A stretch of DNA of 64,000 nucleotides, from contig NZ_VWVM01000001.1 in NCBI RefSeq assembly GCF_008632075.1, positions 372,001-436,000 of the forward strand, read 5' to 3'. This DNA comes from Candidatus Pantoea gossypiicola (lineage in GTDB: Bacteria; Pseudomonadota; Gammaproteobacteria; Enterobacterales; Enterobacteriaceae). Shown here in pieces: positions 1-15,725 of the stretch. Made by a program: the position numbers and the translations under genes. Below the pieces are notes generated by a model. It worked only from the letters and a program-made list of their open reading frames with translations, was not told the origin of the DNA and made no database searches. Position 1 is the stretch's first letter. Every line of letters starts with the position of its first letter.

Positions 1-254
1 GCATGAAAAACATGCAAATAATTAATTAACTTATTGTTATTTATAGAAGTTACCCAAAAAAGTTTAGCAGATGCACATCTGATGAAAATGAATGGAGGTT
101 TGATGATATTTAACTTCATATGGATATACTACTGTAGTCTTAGCTTGGATAAACTGTAGCATTTATCTTAGTCACTGCCTTTAGCTCTATATTTTATAAA
201 GGCTTTAACATTAAATTTTATAATAAATTTTCATAGAGTAATGGAGTAAAATCT
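1..254. other. AT-rich non-coding stretch
   Basis: Very AT-rich sequence with no open frame of note on either strand. It includes the leader of the small gene starting at 255. I see no RNA gene or clear repeat in it. Confidence 0.5.
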
Positions 255-497
255 GTGAGTGATAATAAAAGCAACAATAGAAATAAAAACATAATTGAGA
301 AAATACGCAATTATGACTTTAAGAAGGCAAAAGAAAAAACTGTAACTTTCTTAAAACTGAAGAAAACAATTTTTATTTTATTTTTTGTTTATTTAATATC
401 TCTTTTGCTTATGGCAGGATTCTGGCCTGTTTTTTATATATTTTGCTTTATACCATCTTTAATTGCTTTATTTACTTATAAAAAATGGCAAAAATAA
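255..497 (+). CDS. small hypothetical membrane protein
   Basis: An 80-residue ORF that begins with GTG about 11 bases after a weak GGAG-like site. The first 35 residues are charged and lysine-rich. Residues about 37-72 form one long or two short hydrophobic segments with many Phe, Ile and Leu, and the C-terminus is basic. It overlaps the next ORF by 13 bases, which suggests translational coupling. I do not recognise a family. The AT-rich codon use matches the surrounding island rather than the chromosome to the right. Confidence 0.5.
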   Translation: MSDNKSNNRNKNIIEKIRNYDFKKAKEKTVTFLKLKKTIFILFFVYLISLLLMAGFWPVFYIFCFIPSLIALFTYKKWQK

Positions 498-742
498 ATG
501 CTAAGTTTTTAAAAAACATCAATGACACAACTTTATATCTTTTTGCTTCATGTAAAGCATTTACATTTGCCGCTAACGATGTAGGTTCAGAGAAAGTTAA
601 GTCAATTGCTAACTTTTTTGAAACCGGAAATATTGCAATAATAATTTGGATAATAATACTCTCCTGCACTTTTCTAAAAACAATAATTCATGGTATAGAA
701 AGCTATCGTTCTATTTCTGATACAGAACAACCTAAACAGTAG
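485..742 (+). CDS. small hypothetical membrane-anchored protein
   Basis: An 85-residue ORF whose ATG lies inside the end of the preceding small membrane ORF. It is mainly polar in its first half, with one clear hydrophobic segment at about residues 49-66, rich in Ile, and a polar tail. The pair looks like a two-gene unit of membrane proteins immediately upstream of the mobilization region. No family recognised. A role in entry exclusion or as a toxin pair is possible but is speculation. Confidence 0.45.
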   Translation: MAKINAKFLKNINDTTLYLFASCKAFTFAANDVGSEKVKSIANFFETGNIAIIIWIIILSCTFLKTIIHGIESYRSISDTEQPKQ

Positions 743-918
743 GCCATCTAAATTCGCATCAAATAATTAATTGAGGAAAAAAATCAATAGTATTGTGGAT
801 AAGTAAATCAATGACATTAATATTGCTATGCAGTGTGACATATTAAACCTCCAGATTTTAAAAGAATTAGTTTTTATTTTTATAATTCATTAAATTATTA
901 AGTCAACTGTTAAATAAT

Positions 919-1078
919 AAGCAAGGGCTAACTCATAGATGCTCCGCATCTTTGAGTTGCCTTGCTTTTTCCGCCCTTCGGTTGAAAAAGAAAGATAAAA
1001 GCAAAAAAAATACCAAACCCAACCCATTGACGCGATTGATGTTTGTGGTATTTATTATAGTTAGCATATGGATATGCT
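919..1078. other. candidate origin of transfer (oriT)
   Basis: The 366 bases between the small membrane genes and the mobC-like gene hold three stacked inverted repeats. First is a long imperfect hairpin at 919-967, with arms AAGCAAGG, AACTCA and GATGC all matched on the other side. Second is a pair at 1008-1018 and 1041-1053 (AAATACCAAAC against GTTTGTGGTATTT, one bulged base). Third is AGCATAT-GG-ATATGCT at 1063-1078. Inverted repeats directly upstream of a MobC/relaxase pair are the usual setting of an oriT, with the nick beside one of the hairpins. The nick site cannot be placed by eye. The first hairpin ends in a T-run and could instead be a terminator. Confidence 0.5.
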
Positions 1079-1108
1079 TTTAATGAAATAATATCAAAAG
1101 GAGTTGAT

Positions 1109-1501
1109 ATGAAAGAACACAATATCATTTTTGACGATGAGTTCCCTTCTACATTTACCAATGACCCTGCCGTTAAAAAATCACCCCCTAATCGTCTTCG
1201 CAAACACTCAGTGACTGTCAGATTAAATGAGGTTGAGCTGAGCAAAGTAAACCAGTTCAGAGGACAGCTAAGCAGGAGCTGTTGGCTTAGATCCTCAGCT
1301 CTTCTGCAACTACCCCCTTCTGTTCCCGAAATCAACAAAGAAGCCTGGCAGGAGCTTACTGGTTCCTTACAGAAACTGAATGATCTTACTTCGTTCCTGC
1401 TTCGCAGAGGCGAAGATGCTCAGCCACTATCGCAGGAAGTAAGTGCTTTAAAAGTGAAGCTGTTGCATGTAAGAGATGCTTTGCTGACCCTTGAAAAGTG
1501 A
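1109..1501 (+). CDS. MobC-like relaxosome accessory protein
   Basis: 130 residues, with an AAGGAG ribosome site 7 bases before ATG. Residues about 30-60 (RKHSVTVRLNEVELSKV and onward) fit the ribbon-helix-helix start seen in MobC-type accessory proteins, which bind oriT and help the relaxase nick. The C-terminal half is helical with heptad-like Leu spacing (about 85-128). The gene ends 9 bases before the relaxase gene, so the two are surely co-transcribed, and the hairpin-rich candidate oriT lies just upstream. The family assignment rests on position and the RHH-like pattern, not on strong sequence signatures. Confidence 0.65.
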   Translation: MKEHNIIFDDEFPSTFTNDPAVKKSPPNRLRKHSVTVRLNEVELSKVNQFRGQLSRSCWLRSSALLQLPPSVPEINKEAWQELTGSLQKLNDLTSFLLRRGEDAQPLSQEVSALKVKLLHVRDALLTLEK

Positions 1502-1510
1502 TCATCGCTG

Positions 1511-2617
1511 ATGAAGGGTATGAATAAAATAAAAAGGGGTAAGAACTTTCGAGGAGTAATCTCGTATGCGCTTGCCCCTGCTCCTCATCATATGACTACA
1601 CCAATGGTGATTGGTGGCAATCTTGTCGGCATCACTATAGACGAGCTGACCGCTGAGTTCGCAAAGACTCAGAAGCTAAGAGAGAATGTTACGAAACCAG
1701 TTTGGCATAACTCCCTTCGTCTACCAGTAGGTGAATCACTCACTAAAGAGCAATGGAGGAAAATTGCTGACGATTACATGAAGCGAATGGGATTCTGTGA
1801 CACTCACCTCCGTTGCTATGTTCTGCATGACGACGAGGCAGGACAGCACATTCACATCATTGCTTCGCGGATAAACGTTTTAGCAGATGGCCAGCTTTAC
1901 CTGGGCAGGAACGAGAACCTTAAGAGCACTCGTGTCATTCAGGAGCTTGAAAGAGATCATCAGCTCACCAGAACGAAAGGTCCTTCTCCTACTAAACAGC
2001 CCAAAGAGCAAAGGAAGCTCACTCGTAATGAAAAGATGATGCAGGACAGGACCGGAGAGAAACCTTCTAAAAAAGTGATACAGGAAGCTATAGATGCGAT
2101 CCTTATCTTCTTCGATACCATCACAATCGAAGACTTCATAAATGAGTTACAAAAGCAAAACATATCAGCGACAGCAAACATCGCATCAACTGGCAAGATG
2201 AACGGTTTTTCATTTGAGCATCAGGGAGTCGCTTTTAAGGCATCACAGCTCGGTAAGGCATACAGTTGGTCAAACATGAGTAAACGAATCACCGTCACTC
2301 AACCAATAGAGGCTGTTGCTCCTGAATCGATTGCCGACAATGAAAACGTTTCGAATCCCATTGAAGTTCCTCCCACAGCTATACCAACACCCCTTACGGC
2401 AAATTCCAGAGAACATATCCGATCTCGCTGGTTGCAATGGATACCTTACCTTGAGGAGCTTGTTGCCAGTTTAAAAGCTGTTGGCTCAACGATTCTCAAC
2501 CCTCTCAAAAGAAACTTCATCTTGACCGTAATACGAACCAGCAACTCTGAAGCACCAGAGATTTCTGAGGTAAATTCTCAAGACTCGGCAAGAAAACCGC
2601 AATTTAAACCTCTTTAA
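1511..2617 (+). CDS. relaxase (mobilization nuclease domain, MOBP-like)
   Basis: 368 residues. The N-terminal 150 residues form a relaxase domain: Tyr near residue 18 in a GVISYAL context is the candidate nicking tyrosine, and HDDEAGQHIHIIASRIN at about 105-121 is the three-His metal motif (H-x-D-E-x-G-x-H-x-H). A basic linker (about 150-190) follows, then a domain of unknown role and a short Pro/Ser-rich tail. The protein would nick oriT and lead the strand into a recipient using a helper conjugation apparatus, since no type IV secretion genes are seen in the window. It follows the mobC-like gene by 9 bases. At 368 residues it is in the range of mobilizable-island relaxases and appears intact. 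Confidence 0.85.
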   Translation: MKGMNKIKRGKNFRGVISYALAPAPHHMTTPMVIGGNLVGITIDELTAEFAKTQKLRENVTKPVWHNSLRLPVGESLTKEQWRKIADDYMKRMGFCDTHLRCYVLHDDEAGQHIHIIASRINVLADGQLYLGRNENLKSTRVIQELERDHQLTRTKGPSPTKQPKEQRKLTRNEKMMQDRTGEKPSKKVIQEAIDAILIFFDTITIEDFINELQKQNISATANIASTGKMNGFSFEHQGVAFKASQLGKAYSWSNMSKRITVTQPIEAVAPESIADNENVSNPIEVPPTAIPTPLTANSREHIRSRWLQWIPYLEELVASLKAVGSTILNPLKRNFILTVIRTSNSEAPEISEVNSQDSARKPQFKPL

Positions 2618-2702
2618 ACGGCTAGTTTTCAGATAGTTAAAATCATTCCCTAAGGCAAACACAACAAATATTTTCATTTCAAATCAGATTGATAGATAAA
2701 AA

Positions 2703-2774
2703 CGATCGATCGTTATTACTGATCAATTACCCATTCATGATAGTCATTGACTATCGAAAGAAAGCGATCGATCG
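2703..2774. repeat. symmetric repeat cluster CGATCGATCG ... GATAGTC-ATT-GACTATC ... CGATCGATCG
   Basis: The gap after the relaxase contains two copies of the self-complementary decamer CGATCGATCG at 2703-2712 and 2765-2774. Between them is a perfect 7-bp inverted repeat with a 3-base centre (2739-2755). The arrangement resembles an operator or replication/partition site. The function is unknown. Confidence 0.5.
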
Positions 2775-2913
2775 GTATAAATGATTTGCTAGACCCTGTT
2801 TCCTAGCCGTAATGTAACTTCAAACGAAACCACATAGCACACTGATTTATCAGCAGAATAAGCTGATGCATACGTGCGCCTTTGATTCAGAGAAACTAAC
2901 CTTGGACGAACCT

Positions 2914-3495
2914 ATGACAGCAACAACTGAAGTAAAACAGCCCAACTTCCTTATGATGAAACGGGTATGGATTGCTATTGCACTTCCAATTGTCATTTTC
3001 TATTTCTCTGGAATTCAGGGGTTGGTCCAACTCGCTCTCGTATGGATTTTCGCAAGCATCATGCTCTTGATGTTTGCCTACAAAAAATTCCGCATTAAGA
3101 AGTGGAATGCCAGCACCAGAGACCATTTTGGCGAGCAAGACGGTATGTGGAGTCATGAATTTGGTTCCACTTTTATGAAGCTCGACCAGCAAAGAGGACT
3201 TATCCATCTCAAGGAAGAGAACAAACAAAAAACCTATCCGTTCTCAGCAATCAAAGAGTGGCGATACAATTTGTCTACTACGAGAGAACGGGCTGGTATC
3301 AACAAAGAACTCGACCGCACTCATGATTTTAGAGAATCGGGCTTTTACATCGCAGTGGACGATGTTCAGTATCCAGAATGGAGAGTAATGTTCTTTCCTC
3401 AAAAGGGTGACTTCAACTCGCAGGAAGGTATCCGTGATACGGAACTGCAACTTAAGCGCTGGATGCATATCTTTAATAATGTAATTAATAGATAA
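2914..3495 (+). CDS. hypothetical membrane protein
   Basis: About 193 residues from the ATG at 2914. An upstream in-frame ATG at 2866 would add 16 residues, and neither has a convincing ribosome site. Two hydrophobic helices at about residues 17-35 and 38-55 are followed by a basic stretch and a cytosolic domain rich in aromatic and charged residues (SAIKEWRYNL, PEWRVMFFP). The overall plan resembles DUF4755-type proteins of enterobacterial islands, but I am not sure of that assignment. It is followed by a strong terminator at 3526 and so is its own transcription unit. Confidence 0.6.
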   Translation: MTATTEVKQPNFLMMKRVWIAIALPIVIFYFSGIQGLVQLALVWIFASIMLLMFAYKKFRIKKWNASTRDHFGEQDGMWSHEFGSTFMKLDQQRGLIHLKEENKQKTYPFSAIKEWRYNLSTTRERAGINKELDRTHDFRESGFYIAVDDVQYPEWRVMFFPQKGDFNSQEGIRDTELQLKRWMHIFNNVINR

Positions 3496-3525
3496 ATTAA
3501 AAAATCATATTTATCAGAAACTTAA

Positions 3526-3553
3526 AAAACCAATCGCCAGATTGGTTTTTTTT
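3526..3553 (+). terminator. rho-independent terminator
   Basis: Stem AAAACCAATC (3526-3535), loop GCCA, stem GATTGGTTTT, followed by a T-run. It ends the transcript of the preceding membrane protein gene. Confidence 0.85.
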
Positions 3554-3630
3554 TACCTCTTAACTGTAAAGATAAACTTAACCATTCCGATAAGTTCTAT
3601 GTTTTCACAAAATTTTAATAGGGACTTAGA

Positions 3631-4272
3631 ATGGCTGAAGCATTAAATGAAGGCAAAATCATGCAGGCTCTTAACTGGGCTTACGATAAGGCGCTGGATG
3701 GAAGCATACCAGGAACAGACTCTGCTTATGAAATGGCCGAGAGCTATCTAAAAGGCGATGACACTTTAGTTGAAAAAGTAAACTCTCTCATTCGCTGGCA
3801 AAATACCAAATCCGCCACAACAGGGTTTGTCTCTGGACTTGGGGGAATCATAACCCTCCCTGTAGCAATCCCCGCAAGCATAGCTACAGTCATTTACGTT
3901 CAAATCCGCATGATTACAGCCATCGCTCTGATGGGCGGATATGATGTAAGAGATGATCGCGTAAAAACCATTGTCTATAGCTGCCTTGCTGGAAATGCCG
4001 CAAAAGACATACTCAAAAGCACTGGCATTATCATTGGTTCCAAAATGTCTACTCAGTTGATCAAAAGTATTTCTAAAGAAACCATTTTTGCCATCAATAA
4101 GCAGGTCGGCTTTAGGCTGCTGACGAAGTTTGGTGAAAAAGGAGCTATAAATTTAGGCAAGATGATACCTGTTGTAGGTGGGATCATCGGTGGAACTTTT
4201 GATGGTATATCTACAAATATTGTTGGAAATGTCGCCCGCAAAACATTTATTGAAAAAAGCATATTGTCATGA
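3631..4272 (+). CDS. EcsC family protein
   Basis: 213 residues. The pattern is that of the EcsC family: a polar helical start, then a Gly/Ala-rich amphipathic or membrane-associated core (GFVSGLGGIITLPVAIPAS, residues about 68-87), a second hydrophobic part (VQIRMITAIALMGGYDV), and a glycine-rich end (GKMIPVVGGIIGGTFDG) at about 178-195. EcsC proteins are poorly understood; in bacilli the name comes from an ABC-exporter operon. The gene lies 85 bases upstream of the OLD nuclease on the same strand, and the two could be co-transcribed. Start chosen at ATG 3631, shortly after a GGGACTTAG sequence. Confidence 0.75.
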   Translation: MAEALNEGKIMQALNWAYDKALDGSIPGTDSAYEMAESYLKGDDTLVEKVNSLIRWQNTKSATTGFVSGLGGIITLPVAIPASIATVIYVQIRMITAIALMGGYDVRDDRVKTIVYSCLAGNAAKDILKSTGIIIGSKMSTQLIKSISKETIFAINKQVGFRLLTKFGEKGAINLGKMIPVVGGIIGGTFDGISTNIVGNVARKTFIEKSILS

Positions 4273-4357
4273 AGTAACTCGATAAAGGACGTAAGTCTTA
4301 AAGATAAAATGACGAATTTAAGAAAAATTGCTTTTACATTGAATATGCGAGAAAAAC

Positions 4358-6181
4358 ATGAGATTAGATAAACTTACAATTAAAAACTTCAGGAAGCTTA
4401 AAAACTGCACTGTGAATTTTAGGGATACGACTTTCTTAATTGGCTCGAATAACGCGGGTAAATCGAGTGTTTTTAAGGCATTAGATTATCTCCATAAGAA
4501 CACAAATGTTTCATCTGAAGACTATGCAAAACATTATAATGAAGAACGAGATGACTTCATAAAGGCCAACGAAATAGAGATAATTGGTGAATATCATAAC
4601 CTACCTGATATTGCTAAAGAGTGGGTAGGATTCAAAGGTCGTGTTATCAAGAACAGCGCTCCTGCTGAAGGTGAGACAGATAACATGATAGTTTATAGGA
4701 AAGTATGGAAGCTCGATGCAGCAAAGCCTGAGGTTTATTTAAAGGAGTATACTAAAACCAGAGCAGGAAAATATGCTCATGCTTCTAAGCCAATGGATCT
4801 TATCAGCGAAAATTTTGATATTGATAGATTAACTGAACATTTCGGGATCGAAAATTTAGAATTACCATTCACACATAAGAACAACAAAGAAAACTTTAAT
4901 GACTTACCTGAGCTATGGGATGTTAATACGGATAGCGCTATAACGTGGGTAAAAAACCCAGGCGGAATACCTGGGAATGTATTATCTAAACTCCCCAAGG
5001 TTATTATTATTCCTGCTGAATCATGCATAGCTGAACTAACAAGTCAAAATGGAGCTTTGCTAAGTTTGTTAGTAGACCTATTCAGTGATGTGAGAAAGAA
5101 TTCACAAAATTATGCTCTGGCGCAAACATACCTCTCTGCTCTTGCGAGAGAAATGAATCCTCAAGATGAGAATACTCAATTTGGTCAGTTGATGGAAAAT
5201 CTTAATTCGATGTCGCACAATATTTTCCCAAATACATTTATACATGTATCTGCAAACCTTGATGACGCTGATAAAAGTATTAAACCACTTTTTAGCATAG
5301 AGATGGAAAGCAATGTTAAAACGGCTGTAAATTATCAAGGACATGGGATGATAAGGACAACGGTATTTCAGTTATTAAGATTCATTCAGGACTTCCTGAA
5401 CAGAGCATCCGAATGTCCAAGAAGAACTATTCTCTGCTTTGAAGAACCAGAACTATTTTTACACCCTGCCGCATCTAATCAACTCAGAGATGCTCTTTAC
5501 GATTTTTCCGGTAATAACCATCAAATTGTAGCTACCACCCACTCACCATATATGATTAACTTAGGATCTGATAAAAAAATAAGCCTTACAAAATTTTCAA
5601 TTAGCGAAAATGGATTCTCAGCCACCAAAACGTTTAATATTGAAAAAGCTTTTAAAGAATTAAAAGCCGATGAAAAGCAAAATTTAAAGATGCTTTTAAA
5701 ATTAGATGATTATATATCAAGATTATTTTTCACAAATAAATGCATATTTGTTGAAGGTGATACAGAGGAAATAATTGTTCGAGAAACAATAAAAAGATTA
5801 TCGCCGAGAGATAAATCGATAGTAATAGGAAACTGCGAACTTTTAAGAGCGAGAGGGAAAGCTGTTCTAATTTCCCTGGCAAAATACTTAAATGCTTTGG
5901 ATGTGAATTACATTATTATGCATGACAGGGATGGAGGAACTGAAAAGGCTGAAGCAATGAACCCTTTGATACTATCAGTGACTGGTGCAGAACGCAGAAT
6001 AATGGTTGAAGAATGCATTGAAGATATACTGGGCTATAAGGCTCCAAGCAGCGAAAAGCCATACAAAGCGCATAAACACATAGAAGATAATTGGTCAGAG
6101 GCATTTGAAGACTTACCAACAAACTGGCAAGAAATATTTATTAATCTTCACTCACCTCATCTCGATCATTTAGCTCTCTAA
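4358..6181 (+). CDS. OLD-family ATP-dependent endonuclease (AAA ATPase plus TOPRIM)
   Basis: 607 residues. The N-terminal SMC/RecF-like ATPase shows Walker A GSNNAGKSSV at about 29-38, a signature region near residue 330, Walker B TILCFEEPELFLHP (about 357-370), and the switch His in VATTHSPYM. The C-terminal TOPRIM domain has FVEGDTEEI (about 464-472) and the Asp pair in MHDRDGG (about 522-528). OLD nucleases are used in phage exclusion (P2 Old, GajA of Gabija, retron effectors). No GajB-like helicase follows; the next gene is on the other strand after a bidirectional terminator. This looks like a class 1 single-gene OLD protein, possibly with the EcsC gene as partner. Confidence 0.88.
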   Translation: MRLDKLTIKNFRKLKNCTVNFRDTTFLIGSNNAGKSSVFKALDYLHKNTNVSSEDYAKHYNEERDDFIKANEIEIIGEYHNLPDIAKEWVGFKGRVIKNSAPAEGETDNMIVYRKVWKLDAAKPEVYLKEYTKTRAGKYAHASKPMDLISENFDIDRLTEHFGIENLELPFTHKNNKENFNDLPELWDVNTDSAITWVKNPGGIPGNVLSKLPKVIIIPAESCIAELTSQNGALLSLLVDLFSDVRKNSQNYALAQTYLSALAREMNPQDENTQFGQLMENLNSMSHNIFPNTFIHVSANLDDADKSIKPLFSIEMESNVKTAVNYQGHGMIRTTVFQLLRFIQDFLNRASECPRRTILCFEEPELFLHPAASNQLRDALYDFSGNNHQIVATTHSPYMINLGSDKKISLTKFSISENGFSATKTFNIEKAFKELKADEKQNLKMLLKLDDYISRLFFTNKCIFVEGDTEEIIVRETIKRLSPRDKSIVIGNCELLRARGKAVLISLAKYLNALDVNYIIMHDRDGGTEKAEAMNPLILSVTGAERRIMVEECIEDILGYKAPSSEKPYKAHKHIEDNWSEAFEDLPTNWQEIFINLHSPHLDHLAL

Positions 6182-6193
6182 GCTTAAATACAA

Positions 6194-6225
6194 AAAGCTA
6201 AAATCCAGTGCGGGATTTTAGCTTT
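6194..6225. terminator. bidirectional rho-independent terminator
   Basis: A 13-bp perfect stem (AAAGCTAAAATCC / GGATTTTAGCTTT) with a 6-base loop between two convergent genes. A- and T-rich flanks lie on both sides, so it can serve the OLD gene and the HEPN-like gene. Confidence 0.85.
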
Positions 6226-6296
6226 CCATTTTTCATGCACATGAAAATATAGTTTAGCCTTATCATTTTAATTTATCTTCACTTTATTTAAATGTG

Positions 6297-6869
6297 TCAT
6301 GAATTGTATTGTTCAAAAACAGCAGAACAAAAGTGTGCAATCCATGATTCATAACTTGCTATATGTGAGCATAGTGAATGAATATCATTGATATCAAAAA
6401 CAACATAAGAAATTGAACCATGCGGCATTTTATCGCCAAAAATTTTCTTATAATCATTAGAGTCACCAGTAAGGAATATAATACCGTTTTCATCAGGAAT
6501 TTTTTTTGCTGCCCAATGAGCAAAGATATTTCGATAGTCTCTTCGAAATTTTATTTCATTAAGATTATCAATAACATCTTTTATGTCTGAAAGAGAATGA
6601 ACATAATCATGGACTGAAAATATAAGTTTCTTAATAATAAATGGGATATTGACTCTATCATTGGAACTTACCTTTATCACTCCAGCATTCTTAAGAGTAT
6701 TAAATAGTCTATTGATATTTAACTCAATATAACTATATGTTTGTATGTATTTACCTAAAACTATAAAATCATCGTCTGCCAAGCTTTCAAAATTATCTGG
6801 AAAACAAATTTCAGCTTTTCTTTTCAAATATTCTAATCGTTTAGTTTTAAATTCAGTTGGTAATCCCAT
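6297..6869 (-). CDS. hypothetical protein with HEPN-like RNxxAH motif
   Basis: 190 residues, nearly all helical in appearance. At about residues 110-118 the sequence FRRDYRNIFAHWA carries R-N-I-F-A-H, the R-x4-H arrangement typical of HEPN domains, many of which are RNases in toxin-antitoxin, Abi and other defence systems. A Tyr/Ile-rich helix near the start (YIQTYSYIELNINRLF) matches the first long helix of HEPN folds that often begins with Glu-Leu-Asn. It is convergent with the OLD nuclease gene. I cannot name a family; the HEPN call rests on the motif and helical pattern. It could also be one of the inactive AbiV/Cthe-type HEPN scaffolds. Confidence 0.55.
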   Translation of the reverse strand: MGLPTEFKTKRLEYLKRKAEICFPDNFESLADDDFIVLGKYIQTYSYIELNINRLFNTLKNAGVIKVSSNDRVNIPFIIKKLIFSVHDYVHSLSDIKDVIDNLNEIKFRRDYRNIFAHWAAKKIPDENGIIFLTGDSNDYKKIFGDKMPHGSISYVVFDINDIHSLCSHIASYESWIAHFCSAVFEQYNS

Positions 6870-7095
6870 ACCTCACCCCCTAATTTGCAGAAAGATTTAA
6901 AATAAAACTATAAACCTTAATTATTAATTTAAAAAATTACAATAAATATTTTCTATGCATTAATTGTAATTAAGATATGTCGATGAAAAGTAAGATGCCA
7001 CATAATCTATTTGCAGAACACTAATCATCCAGTTTAAGTTTAAAGTTCGTGTGGCAAACACATTATATATCATTTTGACAAGGAATATAAAACCC

Positions 7096-7503
7096 TCATA
7101 CTTTTTTCTTAACCTTAAAGTCATCTGATTTAAGCTCTGGTGAATGCGTAAGGCTCTGTTTTTGAGTAGCAAATATTCTTTCTACTTCATACTCATTCCA
7201 GATAATGTATTCGATAATAAACTTGTAGAAATACAGCACTCGTTCAAGGCTGACAGTTGAAGGTATTGTATAGAAATTTGGACTGAGCAAAGCCGAACTC
7301 AAAACTGCAATAATGTTGCTTGGTCCCTTCAGATAAGGATTCTGATAGTCTTGCTGATACTTCAAAAAGTATCCTACACAGAATAGGTAGGCATCTTTTA
7401 CGATTTTTTCTTTATTGCAGTCTGATTCATCGTATCTAAGAATGAAGCGATTGAGGAGTATCAAAAATTTCTGATCTGGCAAATATCTGTTTAATTTATT
7501 CAT
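7096..7503 (-). CDS. hypothetical protein downstream of ginD
   Basis: 135 residues, first cargo gene after the recombinase operon on the same strand, 83 bases after ginD. Rich in Tyr, Phe and Ile with alternating helical segments. The C-terminal 20 residues are highly charged and end with a run of lysines. No motif recognised. It may be the last gene of the ginABCD transcript. Confidence 0.5.
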   Translation of the reverse strand: MNKLNRYLPDQKFLILLNRFILRYDESDCNKEKIVKDAYLFCVGYFLKYQQDYQNPYLKGPSNIIAVLSSALLSPNFYTIPSTVSLERVLYFYKFIIEYIIWNEYEVERIFATQKQSLTHSPELKSDDFKVKKKV

Positions 7504-7586
7504 AGTAGCATCCTTGCTGTTGTGAATGTCATCCTGACAATTAAAGAAATATCATAATATCCAATCATGTCAATAGTTAAAACCTA

Positions 7587-8003
7587 TCAAATTTCTATTT
7601 GAATATCTTTTTTAGGTAAAGGACGATTAAGCTCATCGACTGTTATTTGCTTTAAGTGAGAGTTATACAGCCATATCTTAAACTGCTCTAAATATTTGTT
7701 ATTCAATGCTATCAAAGCTTCGTTTTCAGTTTCGAGCCTTTTTATTCTCTGACAAGCAATCTTTAAATTAGCAGGTTTAACCGCACATGTTTCTTTCACA
7801 CCAGACTTGAGAAGCATCTTTTTTGAATTAAAACAATCTACAACTTTAACATGACTACTCAAAGATTGTCTTGAAGGTCTTTTCCCAATGACCTTTATCA
7901 ACTCGTCACATAAAGCCTCCCAGGTCAGCTTCTCATCGTCATTCCAGGTATTAATAACTTTCATTATCAATTTTTCATCGTAACCAGTAATATGTTTAGC
8001 CAT
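7587..8003 (-). CDS. ginD: GinD-like small protein of the GInt recombination operon
   Basis: 138 residues. An N-terminal helical region (about 5-55) includes RPSRQSLSSHVKVV, plausibly a DNA-binding helix. A coiled coil follows at about 83-110 (ACQRIKRLETENEALIALNNKYLEQ). Its ATG directly abuts the stop of the preceding recombinase, with an AAGGAG site inside that gene's end. In GInts, ginD encodes a small helix-loop-helix protein essential for integration and excision; the similar-sized TnpC of Tn554 plays an accessory role with two tyrosine recombinases. Assignment is by position, size and composition. Confidence 0.7.
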   Translation of the reverse strand: MAKHITGYDEKLIMKVINTWNDDEKLTWEALCDELIKVIGKRPSRQSLSSHVKVVDCFNSKKMLLKSGVKETCAVKPANLKIACQRIKRLETENEALIALNNKYLEQFKIWLYNSHLKQITVDELNRPLPKKDIQIEI

Positions 8004-9635
8004 TTATTCTCCTTTTATTATTTTTGTTTGGAATTTATACCATTTATCAGCATTAACATTCCCATCATTTTTATCATAATTGGTTTTTTCAAGAATTTTA
8101 GTGTGTATCATCATTAGTTGGCCATCATCCGTTCCAGAGTCTTGTAAGGGATAATAACTACAAGGCTCAAAAACATATGAGTGCTTGCAGTAGCCATGCT
8201 TAGTGACGAGCACAGCTCCATCATTCAATAAATCGAATTCAGTTATGTCCATAACAGCTATTTCTTTTTTCCTATGGCTATTACCGGCTCCGATTGAAGT
8301 TTTATCTTTCATGAGATTGATCATTTGTAAGTGTGATCGGTGATCGTAGGAAACATTTTGTGAGACCAGCTTCCTTCCAGACCATCTGGCGATGCTAAAC
8401 TCGTCCATACCATTGATTTGAGAAAACGTATTAAGTAGATGTCTTAATTGATGGGTCCTAAGCGAATACGGGCTACCATCTTCGTTAATATAACCGTGTC
8501 TTTTAAACAAGCTTGTAGTGCCTTTGATACTTGCAAAGGCATCAATATCCGATCTAAAAAACTGAGCAGTGGGTCTGAACAAAGGTGCCAAATGATTGCT
8601 CGTTTTCTTACATAATTGTCCCTCAAATAACAGACACAAAGCATTTGAATATTTGATTTTTTTCTCTTCATCATACCAAGGAAAATTTTGAGGTTTTTTA
8701 CTAAAGAGTCCATATCTATATGACTCAGGAACCTTCCCTTCCATCGTTTTTGCAACAAACCTTGGATGGGTGGACAACTTTCTCAACCGGGCTATGGCCT
8801 TTTTAGCTACAGGGACCATTACTGAAGGAATCCATTTGATGTCTCCAGCATACCCCTTCGCTGAAAAAAACCTTAGACCATATCGTTCAATGCCGTTCTC
8901 ATCATGCTCTGTAATCTCACAATCCGCAGGAAGGCTTAATATTTCCGAGATTCGTCCTGGTGCACACATCAGCAGTGCAAGAACAGACGTTGTGAAAATA
9001 TCCCTCACAGACAGTTGGCTTTCATCTTTTGAGAAAATCTCCGCAATGGCTATGACGGACTTTATATCTGGTAATTTTGAGTGCCCTTCCAGAGAAGGTT
9101 CATAACCTTGCCAACTTTGAGTTATTTTATGCCTTAACGGATTTACCCAAAAAAAGTATGATGAGCTTGTCATTCTGTTTTCACTCAAAAATAAACATAG
9201 TTTCTCAAGTTCCTTACCAATTCCAACTGCTGTTAATTTCGTATATTTAGCCGTTGCTACTCTTACACACTCATCAAAAATGTTATTATTACACTTGACT
9301 ACATTAGCTTCACCGTATGATTTCAATAGCACAAACTCAACGATCTTCAACATTGCCAAAGCATTCTGGTTTGATTTTGACTTGTTAAACGAGTGAATAT
9401 GAAACATATAAGCCTTAGCAAAATCAATGAAGCTATCATCTAATCTATCTTTGCTGTTTCGATTATTTTTCATGTCAAACTTGTTGAATCTGTAACATCC
9501 CTTCCATATATTGCTTTCCCATGCAATGGCTAACTTAGAGTTGAAAACATTACCTTTGCAAAATTTAATAAAATCTACAACATTTAAATTTGGGTTGTTA
9601 GCATTGATTGGCTCGAATAAAATCACATTGGTCAT
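8004..9635 (-). CDS. ginC: GinC-like tyrosine recombinase (third of trio)
   Basis: 543 residues, the longest of the three. The C-terminal half carries the catalytic signature: Arg I in CAPGRISEILSLP (about 225-237), the H-x-x-R box in RTHQLRHLLNTF (about 393-404), Trp of the H/W position in IARWSGRKL, and Tyr in NVSYDH (about 429). A long extra N-terminus and an extra tail after the Tyr, with Cys/His residues (HGYCKHSYVFEPC), recall TnpB of Tn554-type elements. Its ATG overlaps the stop of ginB by 4 bases. All catalytic residues appear present, so it is probably active. Confidence 0.82.
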   Translation of the reverse strand: MTNVILFEPINANNPNLNVVDFIKFCKGNVFNSKLAIAWESNIWKGCYRFNKFDMKNNRNSKDRLDDSFIDFAKAYMFHIHSFNKSKSNQNALAMLKIVEFVLLKSYGEANVVKCNNNIFDECVRVATAKYTKLTAVGIGKELEKLCLFLSENRMTSSSYFFWVNPLRHKITQSWQGYEPSLEGHSKLPDIKSVIAIAEIFSKDESQLSVRDIFTTSVLALLMCAPGRISEILSLPADCEITEHDENGIERYGLRFFSAKGYAGDIKWIPSVMVPVAKKAIARLRKLSTHPRFVAKTMEGKVPESYRYGLFSKKPQNFPWYDEEKKIKYSNALCLLFEGQLCKKTSNHLAPLFRPTAQFFRSDIDAFASIKGTTSLFKRHGYINEDGSPYSLRTHQLRHLLNTFSQINGMDEFSIARWSGRKLVSQNVSYDHRSHLQMINLMKDKTSIGAGNSHRKKEIAVMDITEFDLLNDGAVLVTKHGYCKHSYVFEPCSYYPLQDSGTDDGQLMMIHTKILEKTNYDKNDGNVNADKWYKFQTKIIKGE

Positions 9636-10945
9636 TCAGAACTCCAGGCTCTAAAGTTTTTGCAGGTAAAACACTCTACGTGTTCGTGTTTACAATCAGT
9701 GAATCCAAAAGAATTTAAAACATATTCTGTAAAGAGCTTCTTGTTCTGTGTGCTATCGCTACCCTGAAATATCTTCGATAGAGGTTCAAAAAATGAATGA
9801 AGTTTCATATCAATATAGTGAACATTATCTGGGCTATTTTTTACGTATATCCCTGATGAGTTAATAGATTTATGGTCTAATGCTTTAGCGATCACTTCAA
9901 CTGAGGCTCCTTCCTTTGCTAAACGAGAACCAAGGGTATACCTGAATCGTCTGGCATTCAGCCTTATAGGATTATGGGTTCTTGATGACTGGATATTAAA
10001 TTTAGTGGTGATTTTATCTAATTCTTTAGAGATAAATGAATTCTTCATATGTAAAAAATCAGTTGCGATAATGGTATCTAAACTTTGACCAGACTGAATT
10101 GATACGGTTTTTTTGTAGTCCATGAATATAGGTAATTTATTTTTTATATGATTAATCTTCTGATTAATACTATCTTCGATATATTTTTGATTCATATCAA
10201 TCAAGGTTGTTAGTTTCTCATAAAGGCAGTCATCGATACTTACCAAGCTAAACTCACTTCTAAAGTCCTTCCTTTGTTTAACTTTCGGTATATTTAGAAA
10301 GCAACCTTCTCCCGTTCTGATGAGATCTTTTGCTTTTAATGAGGTTAACTGTAAAGGCCTCCTTCCCGTTGTTGCTAAAAGAATGACATAGCAATAAAGA
10401 CACATGGGAATTTTATCTTCTTTTAACAAATTGCTGATACTCTTAAGAACGACTTCCAGCTCTTCTCCAGTTAACGGTCCAGTATTTGGGTCTCTTCGTT
10501 TGACGGCTTCTCCTGTCAAATTATTTTTAACCTTTATTTTTTCCAGCATTGTTAAAGCTGAGGTTTCAACTCCTACATAACCGAGCTTTTTCCACTTCGT
10601 TAGAAACTTCTTTATAGAATTTAGTTTGTAGTTTTTCTCAGGGCCTAAACTAACATTAAATTGATAAACCGCATTAGCATCTATCGTCTTAATGTCTATC
10701 ATTCCTAACCATTGACTAAAAATCTGGTTTATGTTTTTTGTGTAACCTGCACTGTATTCAGCCGAAAAGTAAGCCAAGGTAGTAAGGTAACCAATACGCA
10801 TCGACTCTGGCATTTTGTCGGCAATTTTATATGGAAAAATACAAGTCTCTTTATCTAATTGCCATCTGATATCAGAAAGCTTGAAGCTATACCCCTGCAT
10901 TGTTGCAAAAACCAGATTCTCTTTTCTTAAATTACACGTTGCCAT
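9632..10945 (-). CDS. ginB: GinB-like tyrosine recombinase (second of trio)
   Basis: 437 residues. Arg I is in ATTGRRPLQLTSLK (about 190-203). The second box reads NARRFRYTLG where the usual form is H-x-x-R, so the His is replaced by Arg. LDHKSINSSGIYV near residues 357-369 supplies the His and the catalytic Tyr. A Cys-rich tail (DCKHEHVECFTCKNF) resembles a small zinc-binding knuckle, shared in style with the end of GinC. It overlaps ginA by 14 bases and ginC by 4, so the three are translationally coupled. The changed box suggests either a tolerated variant or a structural partner of the other two. Confidence 0.82.
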   Translation of the reverse strand: MATCNLRKENLVFATMQGYSFKLSDIRWQLDKETCIFPYKIADKMPESMRIGYLTTLAYFSAEYSAGYTKNINQIFSQWLGMIDIKTIDANAVYQFNVSLGPEKNYKLNSIKKFLTKWKKLGYVGVETSALTMLEKIKVKNNLTGEAVKRRDPNTGPLTGEELEVVLKSISNLLKEDKIPMCLYCYVILLATTGRRPLQLTSLKAKDLIRTGEGCFLNIPKVKQRKDFRSEFSLVSIDDCLYEKLTTLIDMNQKYIEDSINQKINHIKNKLPIFMDYKKTVSIQSGQSLDTIIATDFLHMKNSFISKELDKITTKFNIQSSRTHNPIRLNARRFRYTLGSRLAKEGASVEVIAKALDHKSINSSGIYVKNSPDNVHYIDMKLHSFFEPLSKIFQGSDSTQNKKLFTEYVLNSFGFTDCKHEHVECFTCKNFRAWSSE

Positions 10946-12152
10946 TATATTGACCCTCAGTTATCTTTTTCAAAGATTCATATACTCTTCCAATAACTTC
11001 TTTTTCTTTTTCTGATATATGTTTGAAATTATAGTTTTCAGACATTTTTGAGTCTTTTGACCACCCCATGAGATAGCATCTCAATCCTGTTTTACGACTG
11101 ATTTCCAAATTTGAACCATCAATTTCATTTGAATAGAAATAGTTCCATGAATGCCTCAATCTATGCCCCGATAAATTCTTTAATTCCGGGCTTGCTTTTT
11201 TAATGGTTGAAATTATTTTCTCATATGCTGAAACAGATAATGGTTCTCCTGCCGTTTTTCCTGCGCTGTGAGTTACAAACAGGAAGTCATGTTTTTTCTT
11301 TTTAGTGGTTTTACTTCTACAAGTTTGTATGTAATCGAAAATTTCCATCGCTAACTCATCTGATAATGGGATTATCCTTTCGCCAGTTTTAACTAATGGC
11401 TGATTCAGCCTCCGGTCTTCAATGCAGTCATGTCTTCTGAAGATACTCAGTGTGTTTTTTCTAAGATTTAGATCATTTACTTTAAGGTTTAGTAATTCAC
11501 CTGCTCTCAACCCACAATTCAGTAGCAAGGTAAAAATGAGCCGGTTCCTGACTTGAACCTCCTTCTGAAAAGGGTTTTGACTCCCTCCGACTTCCAACAG
11601 CTTAAACAGAGTTTTTATTTGTTCTTCACTTATCGATTTGTCAGTTCTGTCATTGATGCTGAGTGAGCGATTTCGCGGGATGTGCGCCTTTATGCTTTCA
11701 ATAAAACTTTCGACTTCATATCTGGCATGGATTCCCTTCATAGAATGGATCAATCCGCACAACCAATTTAGATAGCTTGAAAAAACGTGTATCCTGTAAC
11801 TAAAAGTTCTTGTAGCAATCTGCTTTCCTTTTAGTAATCTTACATTCGTAATTTTTTGTTGATCGAATCTTTGCTTTGCATACCGTATCAGGTCATCGAC
11901 TTCGGCTACACTTAGGAAACGCTTGGTTTCAATCCTATCAATGATGTTGATTTTCCTACTTTCCATAAAATTGCTAAGGATAAGTAGATTCGTTGCGACT
12001 ATCTCCATCGTAGATGCAGTCGCACTTCTGTTCCTGACATTAGTTGTGAGATATAGGTTCTGATAGTAAACTGGTAGCAGTGTTTCTTTGTTGAGAATTA
12101 AGCAATCGCGTTCTCCATTGCTCATAACAAATTTTTTTATTTTGAATGACAT
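10932..12152 (-). CDS. ginA: GinA-like tyrosine recombinase (first of trio)
   Basis: 406 residues, first gene of the operon, with GGAGGG 8 bases before ATG. SAM-like N-terminal domain (about 35-150), then catalytic domain: LLNCGLRAGELLNLK (Arg I, about 212-226), LSGHRLRHSWNYFY (H-x-x-R, about 326-339), Trp in MGWSKDS, and Tyr in ENYNFKH (about 373). All five expected residues are present. In GInts all four gin products are needed for site-specific integration and excision. The promoter must lie in the AT-rich 316-bp region upstream, which also contains a perfect palindrome and the probable island border. Confidence 0.85.
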   Translation of the reverse strand: MSFKIKKFVMSNGERDCLILNKETLLPVYYQNLYLTTNVRNRSATASTMEIVATNLLILSNFMESRKINIIDRIETKRFLSVAEVDDLIRYAKQRFDQQKITNVRLLKGKQIATRTFSYRIHVFSSYLNWLCGLIHSMKGIHARYEVESFIESIKAHIPRNRSLSINDRTDKSISEEQIKTLFKLLEVGGSQNPFQKEVQVRNRLIFTLLLNCGLRAGELLNLKVNDLNLRKNTLSIFRRHDCIEDRRLNQPLVKTGERIIPLSDELAMEIFDYIQTCRSKTTKKKKHDFLFVTHSAGKTAGEPLSVSAYEKIISTIKKASPELKNLSGHRLRHSWNYFYSNEIDGSNLEISRKTGLRCYLMGWSKDSKMSENYNFKHISEKEKEVIGRVYESLKKITEGQYNGNV

Positions 12153-12282
12153 TATAATAACCCTCCGAAAATTTTACATTTAGTAATCACTACGGCTTAT
12201 CATTATTTTATCGATTTAAACTTTGCAATTTTATTTTGTTATTTTTGGATTTATTTATAATCCATTTAGATACTTAAAAAAA

Positions 12283-12302
12283 TTTCTTTCACGTGAAAGA
12301 AA
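12283..12302. promoter_or_regulatory. perfect 20-bp palindrome upstream of ginA (operator or attachment core)
   Basis: TTTCTTTCAC followed by its exact complement GTGAAAGAAA, 131 bases before the ginA start, in the 316-bp gene-free stretch 12153-12468. It is either the binding site of a dimeric regulator of the gin operon or part of the recombination site at the island edge. No second copy was noticed in the window. Confidence 0.6.
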
Positions 12303-12468
12303 CCAGTACGGCTAGTTTATTGTAGTCATACCCGATTCAAGAAGAAAAACTAATAAAGCCTTATTGCATGAGTAATACAGCGGCGCCAAAAAATAATTTG
12401 GAAAGTATTCTGTTAAATTTTACTATTTTTTAATCTTAAAACTTTACATTTTTAAAATGATGATATTT

Positions 12469-13092
12469 TTAAATAGTGATTTGTATTGTTGTTCGTCCAT
12501 TGTAAATACTTTCTACTTCGTTCCAGTATTTCTCTTTAATAACTTTAACTTTACTGCGGAGTTCATCTCCCATATGAATTATCAATGCTCCTCTTTCCAA
12601 CATGTCACACAGCAAAATTTTTGTTATATCTTCAGTGCTTAGCTTAAGAAGGTCAATGTCATCTGTCATAAATGAATCTTCATCTGGCAGAAGATCCGGC
12701 ATTGTGTCAACATAATGGTTAAGCATACTTCTTTTAATACTTAAGCCACATAGCAACACATAGTCTTCGCCCTTTTCAGTCTTTTTTAATGCGATATTAA
12801 TTTCATTCTGTGTGATTTTCCTCGATAATTTTTTGAGTAGCTTATTACACTTGATTACAGACAGTATGGTTTCATAGATATAGTTTCGATTATCTTCATT
12901 TAACTCAGGTAAAAATTGGAATGGATTGTATTCGCTATCTTCGAGGTAATAGCTTAAACAGGCCACGGATTTTTTACTCAATGTATTAACAGGTAATAAC
13001 CTGATAGCTTCAGCATCAAAAATCTTATCAAAGCTTTTTTGACTAACAAGCAGCGAAAGGTTGCCAATATCTAAGAATTCTTTGATTTCCAC
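12469..13092 (-). CDS. hypothetical protein, AlpA-linked
   Basis: 207 residues, acidic and Leu/Ile-rich, apparently all helical, no motif recognised. It starts 41 bases after the AlpA-like gene on the same strand, so the pair is an operon. Its stop lies at the edge of the gene-free stretch that should contain the GInt border, so it probably belongs to an older resident element beside the GInt rather than to the GInt itself. The possibility that its 3' end was altered by the insertion cannot be excluded. Confidence 0.55.
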   Translation of the reverse strand: MEIKEFLDIGNLSLLVSQKSFDKIFDAEAIRLLPVNTLSKKSVACLSYYLEDSEYNPFQFLPELNEDNRNYIYETILSVIKCNKLLKKLSRKITQNEINIALKKTEKGEDYVLLCGLSIKRSMLNHYVDTMPDLLPDEDSFMTDDIDLLKLSTEDITKILLCDMLERGALIIHMGDELRSKVKVIKEKYWNEVESIYNGRTTIQITI

Positions 13093-13132
13093 ATTGTCCT
13101 CACTTTGTCGATGTTGTTCGTCTAGAGCCTAA

Positions 13133-13345
13133 CTATGAAGCTGTTCTCGAATTGCTAATGGTGTCAGAAATCCAATCATCGACTTCAATCTCAATGAAAG
13201 CTACAGACCTTGCTCCCAGTTTGATAGGTTTAGGGAATTTATTTTCAGAAATCAATCGGTAAATCCATGCTTTCTTGTAACCTGTTTTATGCATGACTTC
13301 TGGTAAGCGGATAAGTCGTGTGGTTTGTTTAGTAGATGTGTTCAT
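13133..13345 (-). CDS. AlpA-family transcriptional regulator
   Basis: 70 residues from the ATG at 13345, chosen over the longer frame because GAGGAG lies 8 bases upstream. The sequence RLIRLPEVMHKTGYKKAWIYRLI followed by ENKFPKPIKLGARSVAFIEIEVDDWI is the MerR-like winged helix-turn-helix of AlpA proteins. These excision or activation regulators accompany P4-type integrases and prophage remnants. No matching integrase is adjacent, which suggests a decayed older element or control of the downstream unknown gene. Confidence 0.82.
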   Translation of the reverse strand: MNTSTKQTTRLIRLPEVMHKTGYKKAWIYRLISENKFPKPIKLGARSVAFIEIEVDDWISDTISNSRTAS

Positions 13346-13704
13346 GATTGTATCTCCTCGCCTTGTCGATGAGTTGATACTAAATAGACGGGAACAGGCT
13401 TTGAAGGGATGTAGTGGACATTGTTTCATAAGAGATGAACTACTTGCGATATGCTTGATGAGAAAATTTATTTTGTTTTGTGCATTGACTTTTCAATGAT
13501 AAAATGGCATTGGATTTTTTTTATACATGAATGTCGAATTTTACTAAGCGAAATGATATGAACATTCTTTCCAAGCTATTACACAAACTATGGGATTTTT
13601 AATAAAAACCTGCGGCCAAAAATTCAAGAAATCGCTGGCACCTTCTAAAAACTTCATTTATAAATATTTATGCATTAATTTTTCTTTTAATTCTTAGATT
13701 TGGA
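13346..13704. other. AT-rich intergenic region between divergent genes
   Basis: 359 bases between the AlpA-like gene and the 661-residue gene. It is AT-rich and must hold both promoters. I see no tRNA, strong hairpin or repeated motif. Confidence 0.5.
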
Positions 13705-15690
13705 ATGATGTATATGGTTCTCAACAATAAAAGTATGCCAGCAACTGGTCCCGCAGGTGAAGGTGACTATAACTTGCCATATGACAGATTACCTGTCCCT
13801 GAAGTTTTCGAATCTTTTTGCCGCTCCTTAATTCAACTTAAGGAACAAAATCATCATAACGTATTGTCTGTAAGTGTTAAATCTACTGGTGGTAGAGGCT
13901 GTGTTCAATTAGGTGGAGATATTATAGTTAAAATTACTGACAACAATAATGAGTCAGTTAATGACTTATATGATTGCAAAGGTGGAGCAACATTATCTGT
14001 ATCCAAATACATAAAAGCAGTTGATAAATTCATTGGTAGCGTAAAAGAATGGGATTTTAAATTAAGATCTTTTAATATAATTTCAGCAAGTTTCATTTCA
14101 GCCAAAGTGCTCAATACTATATCGGAACAACAAGAGCGACTGCGTAAATTCGGTATCCTCCATGAAGTTTATGGCCGTGAAGATATTGAGTCTTGGATGA
14201 AGTCAGTTCATTCTGATAATTTGATAGTTGAGTTTTTTAGTAAGGGATATATTGAAAGACTTCGTGGTGAAGAAGGACTTTGGCAAATAAAGAATCAGGG
14301 TATCTGGGGAAAACTAAAGCAAAACTCTTGGAATAATTACCGTGGGGAGAAAGAAAATAAAGAGTCAGAACCCTATAGTTATATTAATGAGTATGTAAAT
14401 ATTGTTGCCTATTTACCCACACCAGACAGGCAATCAATTTCATGCTTTATTGATCTTAGACATCATGATTACAATCATTTGTCAGTTACTTTAAGCCAAG
14501 ATTTTCTTTTAAGTTATGCTTTCGAAGGTTCAGCAACACCACCTGAGTCCGAGTGCCGTCCGTGGCTTTTCAAATCCAACGATAATGAATTTGTATGTGA
14601 CCTTGGAAATCTACGGATATCTTTACCCTACAATAGCGTTAAAGGTATATGTAACGCTTTTGATAAACTGTGGTTTGCTTATAAAGAAAAAATCCAACAA
14701 ATTGGAAATTTATTTTGCAGTTATAACTTTGATGATGATGGCTATTGCAAAAATAGTGTTCCCATCATGAAGATTCCTCTATGGATGTGGTATAGATTGC
14801 ATAAGTTCTGTACAGATTTCGATTATGTAGAAAACGAAGGCGAATGGGCAATATTTAACGCATTGCATAATAGAATCGTGGTCTTTAATACTTTAAATTA
14901 TAATACATTCCCCTCTCGTTATGTTTCTTTTAGAATAGTGCCCCCAAAATGCATCGATGAATTCCATATTCGCGAAGCTATTATTCTATGGGAACCACCT
15001 AAATCATTTAGTCTGATTATCCAAAAACCATCTGATTTAGCTATCAGGGAAAACGTATATGCTGATGCTTTGACCACTCACGATTGGCTAAACGAATTTT
15101 TACTCCCGACAGCTCTCGATTGGTATTTGAATACAAAAAAAGTATCCTTTCTTACTAAAATTAAACCTTCATATTTATTTAGAGACAGGAATGAAGAAAG
15201 GTTTGACATTAACCTTATTTCTTCACTTTATAAAAAACCTTCTCCAACTCTTCTTTCAACCGATTATGAGATGACGGTTTTTTCTAAATTGGTAGCTGAC
15301 TTGCAAAGTTTTTATCACTGCGGTTCAGATAGCATTGCATTTCCAAGAGACGAAATGCTTTCTCTCTTCAATGCACTTTTGATATTAATAAATAATACTG
15401 AATTCAGATATTTAGGATACATCTGTGGATGCTTAAACGCATATCCATCAACTTATGAAAATTTACTATCATCGATAAATAATTTGAAAAAAAGAATTAA
15501 CGATTACGATAAAAGAACAATGTTAATTGATATGATTTTTCGCTGCTTTATTGCTTGTGAAAGAGATGGAAAGCTCGTTCTTAATAAGCATAAAATCTCA
15601 CAAATTAATAACCTACTCTCCCCATTTATTGATAAAATGCACGACAGAAATCTATTAATGAAACAAAAATTGAAAAATGGTTCCTACTGA
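13705..15690 (+). CDS. hypothetical protein with possible nuclease-like N-terminal domain
   Basis: 661 residues, no family recognised. The N-terminal 150 residues read like a restriction-endonuclease-like fold. SVSVKSTGGRGCVQLGGDIIVKI (about 54-76) puts an Asp before a beta-strand, and LYDCKGGATLS (about 88-98) supplies a D-x-K, as in PD-(D/E)xK nucleases where QCK is common. A conserved-looking helix-strand then follows (FNIISASFISAKV ... LRKFGILHEVYGREDIESWM). This is the layout of N-terminal nuclease domains in several multidomain defence proteins. The remaining 480 residues show no P-loop or other known motif. GC content is low. Start uncertain: ATGs at 13705, 13708 and 13714, with only a weak GGA before them. 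Confidence 0.6.
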   Translation: MMYMVLNNKSMPATGPAGEGDYNLPYDRLPVPEVFESFCRSLIQLKEQNHHNVLSVSVKSTGGRGCVQLGGDIIVKITDNNNESVNDLYDCKGGATLSVSKYIKAVDKFIGSVKEWDFKLRSFNIISASFISAKVLNTISEQQERLRKFGILHEVYGREDIESWMKSVHSDNLIVEFFSKGYIERLRGEEGLWQIKNQGIWGKLKQNSWNNYRGEKENKESEPYSYINEYVNIVAYLPTPDRQSISCFIDLRHHDYNHLSVTLSQDFLLSYAFEGSATPPESECRPWLFKSNDNEFVCDLGNLRISLPYNSVKGICNAFDKLWFAYKEKIQQIGNLFCSYNFDDDGYCKNSVPIMKIPLWMWYRLHKFCTDFDYVENEGEWAIFNALHNRIVVFNTLNYNTFPSRYVSFRIVPPKCIDEFHIREAIILWEPPKSFSLIIQKPSDLAIRENVYADALTTHDWLNEFLLPTALDWYLNTKKVSFLTKIKPSYLFRDRNEERFDINLISSLYKKPSPTLLSTDYEMTVFSKLVADLQSFYHCGSDSIAFPRDEMLSLFNALLILINNTEFRYLGYICGCLNAYPSTYENLLSSINNLKKRINDYDKRTMLIDMIFRCFIACERDGKLVLNKHKISQINNLLSPFIDKMHDRNLLMKQKLKNGSY

Positions 15691-15716
15691 AGATTCAACC
15701 TTTTAGTTGAATAATC
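15691..15716. terminator. weak bidirectional terminator between convergent genes
   Basis: ATTCAAC (15693-15699) pairs with GTTGAAT (15706-15712) across a short T-rich loop, in the 35-bp gap between the ends of the two convergent genes. Confidence 0.5.
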
Positions 15717-15725
15717 ATTTGCTAA

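Follow-up and report, generated by a model that had tools for sequence, protein, structure and literature searches.

A 64,000-nucleotide stretch of contig NZ_VWVM01000001.1 of Candidatus Pantoea gossypiicola (assembly GCF_008632075.1; positions 372,001 to 436,000, or G000:C1:372001-436000, hereafter the window) carries a mobilization module, consisting of a MobC-like gene, a relaxase gene and a strong hairpin, and a four-gene operon, ginABCD, in which three recombinase genes (ginA, ginB and ginC, here the trio) are accompanied by a small gene, ginD, in the layout of the elements called GInts. An initial annotation of positions 919-12468 had taken these features for one GInt with mobilization genes in its cargo. 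When 20-kb stretches leftward of the window are included (L003:9319-20000 equals G000:C1:361319-372000), both the module and the operon fall inside an island in the tRNA-Arg(CCT) gene, whose left end, L003:9319, is 10.7 kb outside the window and whose right end is window position 16803. The features of the island that matter most here are as follows (window coordinates, strand).

1-16803 (no strand): right 16.8 kb of what is best called an integrative and mobilizable element (IME), delimited by a 15-bp attL/attR repeat and by empty sites in G288, G746 and G781; the left 10.7 kb lies outside the window
919-967 (+): hairpin, candidate origin of transfer (oriT); conserved block to about 995 (GCCCTTCGGTTG)
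1109-1501 (+): MobC/NikA-like relaxosome accessory protein, 130 amino acids (aa); weak PF21983 match in homologues
1511-2617 (+): MOBP-like relaxase, three-His motif intact; PF03432, E 1.3e-24
7096-7503 (-): conserved 135-aa gene (orf7096), after ginD in many members; synteny
7587-8003 (-): ginD-like small gene, 138 aa; open reading frame (ORF), synteny
8004-9635 (-): ginC-like large recombinase-fold gene, 543 aa; named by operon position and size
9632-10945 (-): ginB-like tyrosine recombinase; PF00589
10932-12152 (-): ginA-like tyrosine recombinase; PF00589, E 5.8e-21
12305-12332 (-): closed 11-6-11 trio site, GGTATGACTAC-AATAAA-CTAGCCGTACT, between alpA and ginA
13133-13429 (-): AlpA-like regulator; PF05930, E 1.4e-20
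15726-16535 (-): DUF6387 gene, usually adjoining AlpA; PF19924, E 7.8e-74, synteny
16789-16803 (+): attR, CTGCAGGGGACACCA, copy of the tRNA-Arg 3' end

Borders and gene content

The tRNA-Arg(CCT) gene occupies L003:9259-9333, and its final 15 bases are repeated at window 16789-16803. Just after it lies a P4-type integrase gene with Arm-DNA-bind_3 and Phage_integrase domains, and the AlpA gene, whose product is a likely directionality factor for this integrase, lies near the island's other end. Of seven same-genus loci inspected, three (G288, G746 and G781) have an empty site, at which an intact tRNA-Arg abuts the right flank of our island at the repeat, the flank in G288 being 96% identical; from this uninterrupted arrangement the island is therefore about 27.5 kb long. 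Among the other four loci, two retain just the end of the tRNA, one has tRNA-Arg with a different adjoining stretch and one has no tRNA in the stretch inspected. The leftward extension that the initial annotation had proposed thus places the mobilization genes inside the element, but the border it reaches is tRNA-Arg at L003:9319 and not that of a GInt.

The components of the mobilization module bear out what had been claimed for them. The DNA fold of the hairpin has an energy of -19.3 kcal/mol (z -4.08; 0/200 shuffles as good), and a motif search allowing one mismatch recovered it within 800 bp upstream of the relaxase gene in 18 of 25 related units and not in the remaining seven, making this conserved hairpin an oriT candidate. 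The MobC-like ORF itself has no Pfam match, while six of ten members of its family match NikA-like PF21983 weakly (best E 0.0017). In the relaxase, which scores 67 bits against NF041893 (cut-off 250), the motif HDDxxGQHIHI has its three His residues invariant in all nine aligned members; no solved structural relative was found by sequence.

The ginABCD operon (7587-12152) is internal to the island and all four of its genes are open. The ginC-like protein has no Pfam match, and the ginB-like one scores 328 bits against NF041502, under the cut-off of 350; assignment to the GInt type is by layout and by ssb-inserted relatives in our sample that share the same operon, not by comparison with the published DSM 4166 sequences. 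The GInt-type operon is thus retained from the initial annotation, whereas neither the interval 919-12468 as a GInt nor a GInt border near 12.4 kb holds, the right end being 16803: at the ginA end, where a GInt would terminate in short imperfect repeats, there is a closed internal site, and the island ends elsewhere. The island has its own integrase and attL/attR at its ends, and a relaxase without a conjugation apparatus, judged by the VirB4 family as the sole marker of a type IV secretion system (T4SS). With a GInt operon lacking GInt borders, and outside the EARL group discussed below, the most fitting description of the region is an IME in which a GInt-type recombination module is embedded. 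The sole VirB4-family match in the genome, a T4SS ATPase gene, is on contig C43, outside the island, and marks a possible conjugation helper.

Linkage of mobilization and gin genes among relatives

The gene order DUF6387 - AlpA - ginABCD - orf7096 - cargo - relaxase - mobC recurs across related bacteria of gut and plants, namely in E. coli, Klebsiella, Citrobacter, Enterobacter, Pantoea, Erwinia, Kosakonia and Pectobacterium, in islands that adjoin tRNA-Pro, tRNA-Leu, tRNA-Thr, tRNA-Arg or ssrA and have varied integrases. In a survey that stopped short of the far end at many loci, five further islands proved to have direct att repeats of 18-32 bp (tRNA-Pro in G011, G354, L007 and L009; tRNA-Thr in G210). 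No relatives on plasmids were found at megablast level. Among 12 named loci from a contig scan, mobC and the relaxase gene are present in nine, and the contigs of the other three end 1-7.5 kb past ginC. GinA matches occur in 22 of 362 Enterobacteriaceae genomes, at 25 places, four of which are not evaluable (G562, G297 and G496 at contig edges; G729 with a ginA fragment only). In 18 of the 21 evaluable loci the trio is accompanied by mobC and a relaxase gene of our own relaxase family, the one covered (p 7.5e-4 for the 18-vs-3 split); in G041 the operon is divided between two contigs, of which C60 shows the link, and in G480 the relaxase gene is 16 kb from ginD. In all three loci without the pair (G424, G505 and G626) ginA abuts an SSB gene, identified by Pfam, G505 and G626 being readable for just 8-9.5 kb before the contig ends.

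At a broader scale, the close subfamilies of GinC and of the relaxase, delimited at gaps in the scores, each occur in five of 394 order-level genomes, four of them shared (p 2.5e-8). In the genome with GinC alone the sequence stops 1.6 kb beyond ginD, and the one with the relaxase alone retains remnants of ginA and ginB. Near distant GinC matches in the other 31 order-level genomes, a comparison by eye limited to PF03432 found no match to that family. Distances are closely correlated within the trio operon (Mantel r 0.95 for ginA-ginD), less so for the relaxase with ginD (r 0.54), ginA (r 0.46) or DUF6387 (r 0.52; each p 5e-4), and weakly or hardly for DUF6387 with ginD (r 0.23, p 0.018) and ginA (r 0.04, p 0.35); by these correlations the partnership of relaxase and trio looks old, with swaps. 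A second trio type adjoins mutS (L038, L040, L041 and L103), and AlpA and DUF6387 were not detected there. At the mutS-type loci another integrase, a helix-turn-helix protein and an H-NS homologue lie between mutS and ginA (Pfam confirmed the domains and MutS in L040 alone). Of 5426 complete E. coli genomes, 337 contain 80% or more of the ginA-AlpA-DUF6387 end; many of the matches listed are from O157:H7, and the one inspected (L065) adjoins ypjA.

The survey confirms that mobilization genes and trio belong to the same mobile element, and a search for a GInt border separating ginD from the mobilization genes, which would have placed them in different elements, found none. Both results favour the model of the initial annotation, in which the trio would excise the whole region as a circle from the borders of a single GInt. 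The ends of the island, however, are tRNA-Arg repeats with a single P4-type integrase and AlpA, 4.5 kb beyond ginA; the trio is internal, both sides of its site next to ginA are closed, and a search of the island gave no further complete site. Largely refuted already by the empty sites, this model appears very unlikely. Its corollary that linked mobilization genes account for the spread of GInts in general likewise does not hold, given the three classic-looking ssb-inserted GInts without such a relaxase in their readable sequence.

The closed site and its spacer

The trio site, a dyad of two 11-bp arms around a six-base spacer, lies some 130-210 bp upstream of ginA. One of five site patterns is matched at 39 of 47 loci, that of the second trio type being GGTAAATAGAA-N6-TTCTATCTACC. 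Among 19 non-redundant sites of our own subtype the arms are nearly invariant and the spacers are all distinct (19/19), and in six disjoint pairs with near-identical flanks the differences amount to 10 of 492 flank positions vs 21 of 36 spacer positions (p 9e-21). All five spacers of the second type differ as well. Invariant arms around a variable spacer point to a second recombination system, whose spacer would record past exchanges.

Neither a second full trio site nor a GInt right end was found: the full dyad has no other match at fewer than six mismatches in L003 or the window, and with at most one mismatch per arm both arms occur in the island only at the alpA-ginA site, apart from a lone arm at window 2803. 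A single-arm search with up to two mismatches gives many scattered matches. In the ssb-inserted GInts the end of ssb, by eye, occupies the position of the alpA-side arm. By this comparison the site in the IME looks like the closed junction of a circle: the entire IME could be pictured as a GInt circle that a different integrase keeps in the chromosome. Beside the site, also by eye, are a palindrome, CTTTCACGTGAAAG (window ~12285-12305, ginA side), and GTAAAG/CTTTAC-like repeats (window 12333-12460, alpA side), which are possible binding sites of GinD or AlpA. The lone arm-like CTAGCCGTAAT (window 2803-2813) lies between the relaxase and DUF4755 genes and is present in L031 too.

The pattern bears on the view that a true GInt was inserted beside alpA in an older IME and that the alpA-side arm is its target. 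The low correlation of DUF6387 with the trio genes, set against the moderate values for the relaxase and the tight one within the trio, would fit such nesting, as would divergent trios in the same place and the existence of one island, L063, without a trio. A fixed target nevertheless predicts a fixed spacer, yet no two of the 19 agree; no attR with the other half of a target was found, and L063 shows no such site, nor anything target-like beside alpA. We therefore consider nesting unlikely.

Two breaks in homology coincide with the spacer. The E. coli islands L007 and L009, near-identical and in the same place, match at 99.6% over 13.3 kb to the left and at 99.0% over 2.1 kb to the right, whereas the gin segment of about 5 kb between these flanks is 68% alike; towards alpA the two sequences agree again from the first base past the spacer, and the other, left edge is inside orf7096. 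In G016, an island in the same tRNA-Arg, homology with our island ends at window 12317, inside the spacer, and beyond the break lie foreign DNA and a second mobC-relaxase unit. Among 61 genus genomes an uninterrupted copy of this foreign DNA was found only in G016 itself, and the lost DUF6387 gene was not found elsewhere in that one genome. Foreign DNA joined exactly at the spacer, together with a closed, attI-like site adjoining recombinase genes, might suggest an integron-like platform at which the trio inserts circular cargo, but in most members the interval from alpA to the site is empty or contains one conserved small gene, and the cargo sits elsewhere; this reading is very unlikely.

The explanation that we consider probable combines three activities in one IME: integration at tRNA-Arg, helper-dependent mobilization, and a GInt-type second recombination system acting at a closed site. 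Judging from the anatomy, the P4-type integrase, probably with AlpA, would excise the island from the tRNA-Arg(CCT) 3' end and integrate it there. On the circle, MobC and the relaxase would nick the hairpin oriT, and a co-resident conjugation system would move the strand. The ginABCD system would act at its own dyad site between alpA and ginA, where strand exchange with a heterologous partner (the site of another element or a secondary target) would replace the 6-bp spacer and leave the arms intact; the same exchange could bring in another gin operon or attach new DNA. More tentatively, and with somewhat less than even expectation, the IME may be a dual-mode element that integrates at the tRNA via one integrase, or at loosely specified sites or in resident sister islands via the three-recombinase machine, the spacer being the record of the last trio-driven exchange.

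Several observations weigh against an active second system. Eight of the 47 loci match no pattern: the three ssb GInts, the G016 half-site, and L037, L099, L106 and L111, which have at most diverged look-alikes of the site. The third subtype is less variable, with merely three distinct spacers among seven, and L108 and L109 share an identical spacer. Ordinary homologous recombination would seem to account for the left edge of the L007/L009 swap. No trio-integrated copy of our own subtype was found except the G016 half-site, and ginA without the alpA side does not occur in the 60 E. coli matches listed of 906 records. As regards tRNA integration, no att repeat was found for G015, G016 or, in a 12-mer search, the ssrA island L008. 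A site diversified by recombination, moreover, need not remain active. The trio might then be a passenger without present function, its spacer differences being old or derived from gene conversion; the trio of G354 is decayed in an otherwise tRNA-bounded island, and there are stop codons in ginB of G016 and ginC of G011. Neither drift nor gene conversion, however, would confine change to six bases between conserved arms in close pairs, and the four gin genes of the window are open, which leaves the passenger view quite unlikely.

Accessory genes and relation to known systems

The remaining genes of the island within the window are the following.

2866-3495 (+): DUF4755 gene, often next after the relaxase gene; domain search, synteny
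3631-6869 (no strand): cargo, comprising an EcsC-family gene (3631-4272), an OLD/GajA-like ATPase-TOPRIM gene (4358-6181) and an ORF (6297-6869)
12469-13092 (-): 207-aa gene in the alpA-ginA interval, with homologues in some other members
13705-15690 (+): 661-aa cargo gene, weak LmuA match

The EcsC-family gene, which adjoins the OLD/GajA-like gene, matches the PADLOC candidate defence family PDC-S29. Directly downstream of orf7096, at window ~6950-7040, an inverted-repeat stretch around GTGTTCTGCAAA is similar, by eye, in our island, G016, L031 and G021, and could be a terminator, a small RNA or a recombination feature. Left of the window, L003:11199-14484 holds a third recombinase module, a large serine recombinase gene followed by two ParB-like genes, which recurs in G016, G021, G210 and G612 and is annotated likewise in L067. 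With the tRNA-proximal integrase as reference, the interior from the serine recombinase to DUF6387 is inverted between our island and G210 (L059-L061). Cargo at L003:14655-19478, common to several sister islands, comprises hxsA, hxsC and hxsB (His-Xaa-Ser system, identified through their likeness to annotated genes of E. coli), along with a DUF6119 gene. A second integrase gene directly left of tRNA-Arg (L003:7894-9156, minus strand) belongs to a neighbouring phage-like region.

The occurrence of the gin module mostly in relaxase-bearing islands of the sampled Enterobacteriaceae offers a testable route between cells, and a short site with invariant arms and a variable spacer would let trio activity be read out by sequencing. 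Genes that resemble anti-phage defence genes, or are annotated as such, are present in some of the islands, and island movement bears on the spread of such genes.

In Tn916-type coupling sequences, conserved arms flank a short junction that changes at each move. The likeness to our site lies in the sequence pattern alone, and here three recombinases and a small protein are present. The other systems are compared as the cited papers describe them. The strand-biased circularizing elements (SE) share a multi-recombinase operon and a 6-bp footprint and are reported as a separate protein group (PMC10214605); we set them apart by this description only. ROD21-like EARL islands are likewise Enterobacteriaceae tRNA islands with a P4-like integrase and mobilization genes (PMC6035254), and a trio-less E. 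coli relative has a gene named SEN1984 family. EARL islands, however, lie at Asn-tRNA and most have a MobA/MobL relaxase (PMC6035254), whereas ours is in tRNA-Arg(CCT) and has a PF03432 relaxase. With canonical MOBP-relaxase IMEs (PMC5704250) the island shares an integrase, a relaxase, an accessory protein, an oriT candidate and the lack of a VirB4-family gene, and differs in the additional four-gene recombination system and its site. GInts have been called putatively non-mobilizable (PMC10214605), and the paper describing them could not show transfer (PMC5385486); in the open-licence literature we found no paper joining GInt-type trios with relaxases. Like the GInt/Tn6571 family, the island has ginABCD in the same order and sizes and a 6-nt crossover, and the ssb 3' end described there as a target is abutted by three relatives in our sample (PMC5385486). 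It differs from a GInt in that the operon is internal to an IME, with a closed site, its own P4-type integrase at tRNA-Arg, and mobC, a relaxase gene and an oriT candidate.

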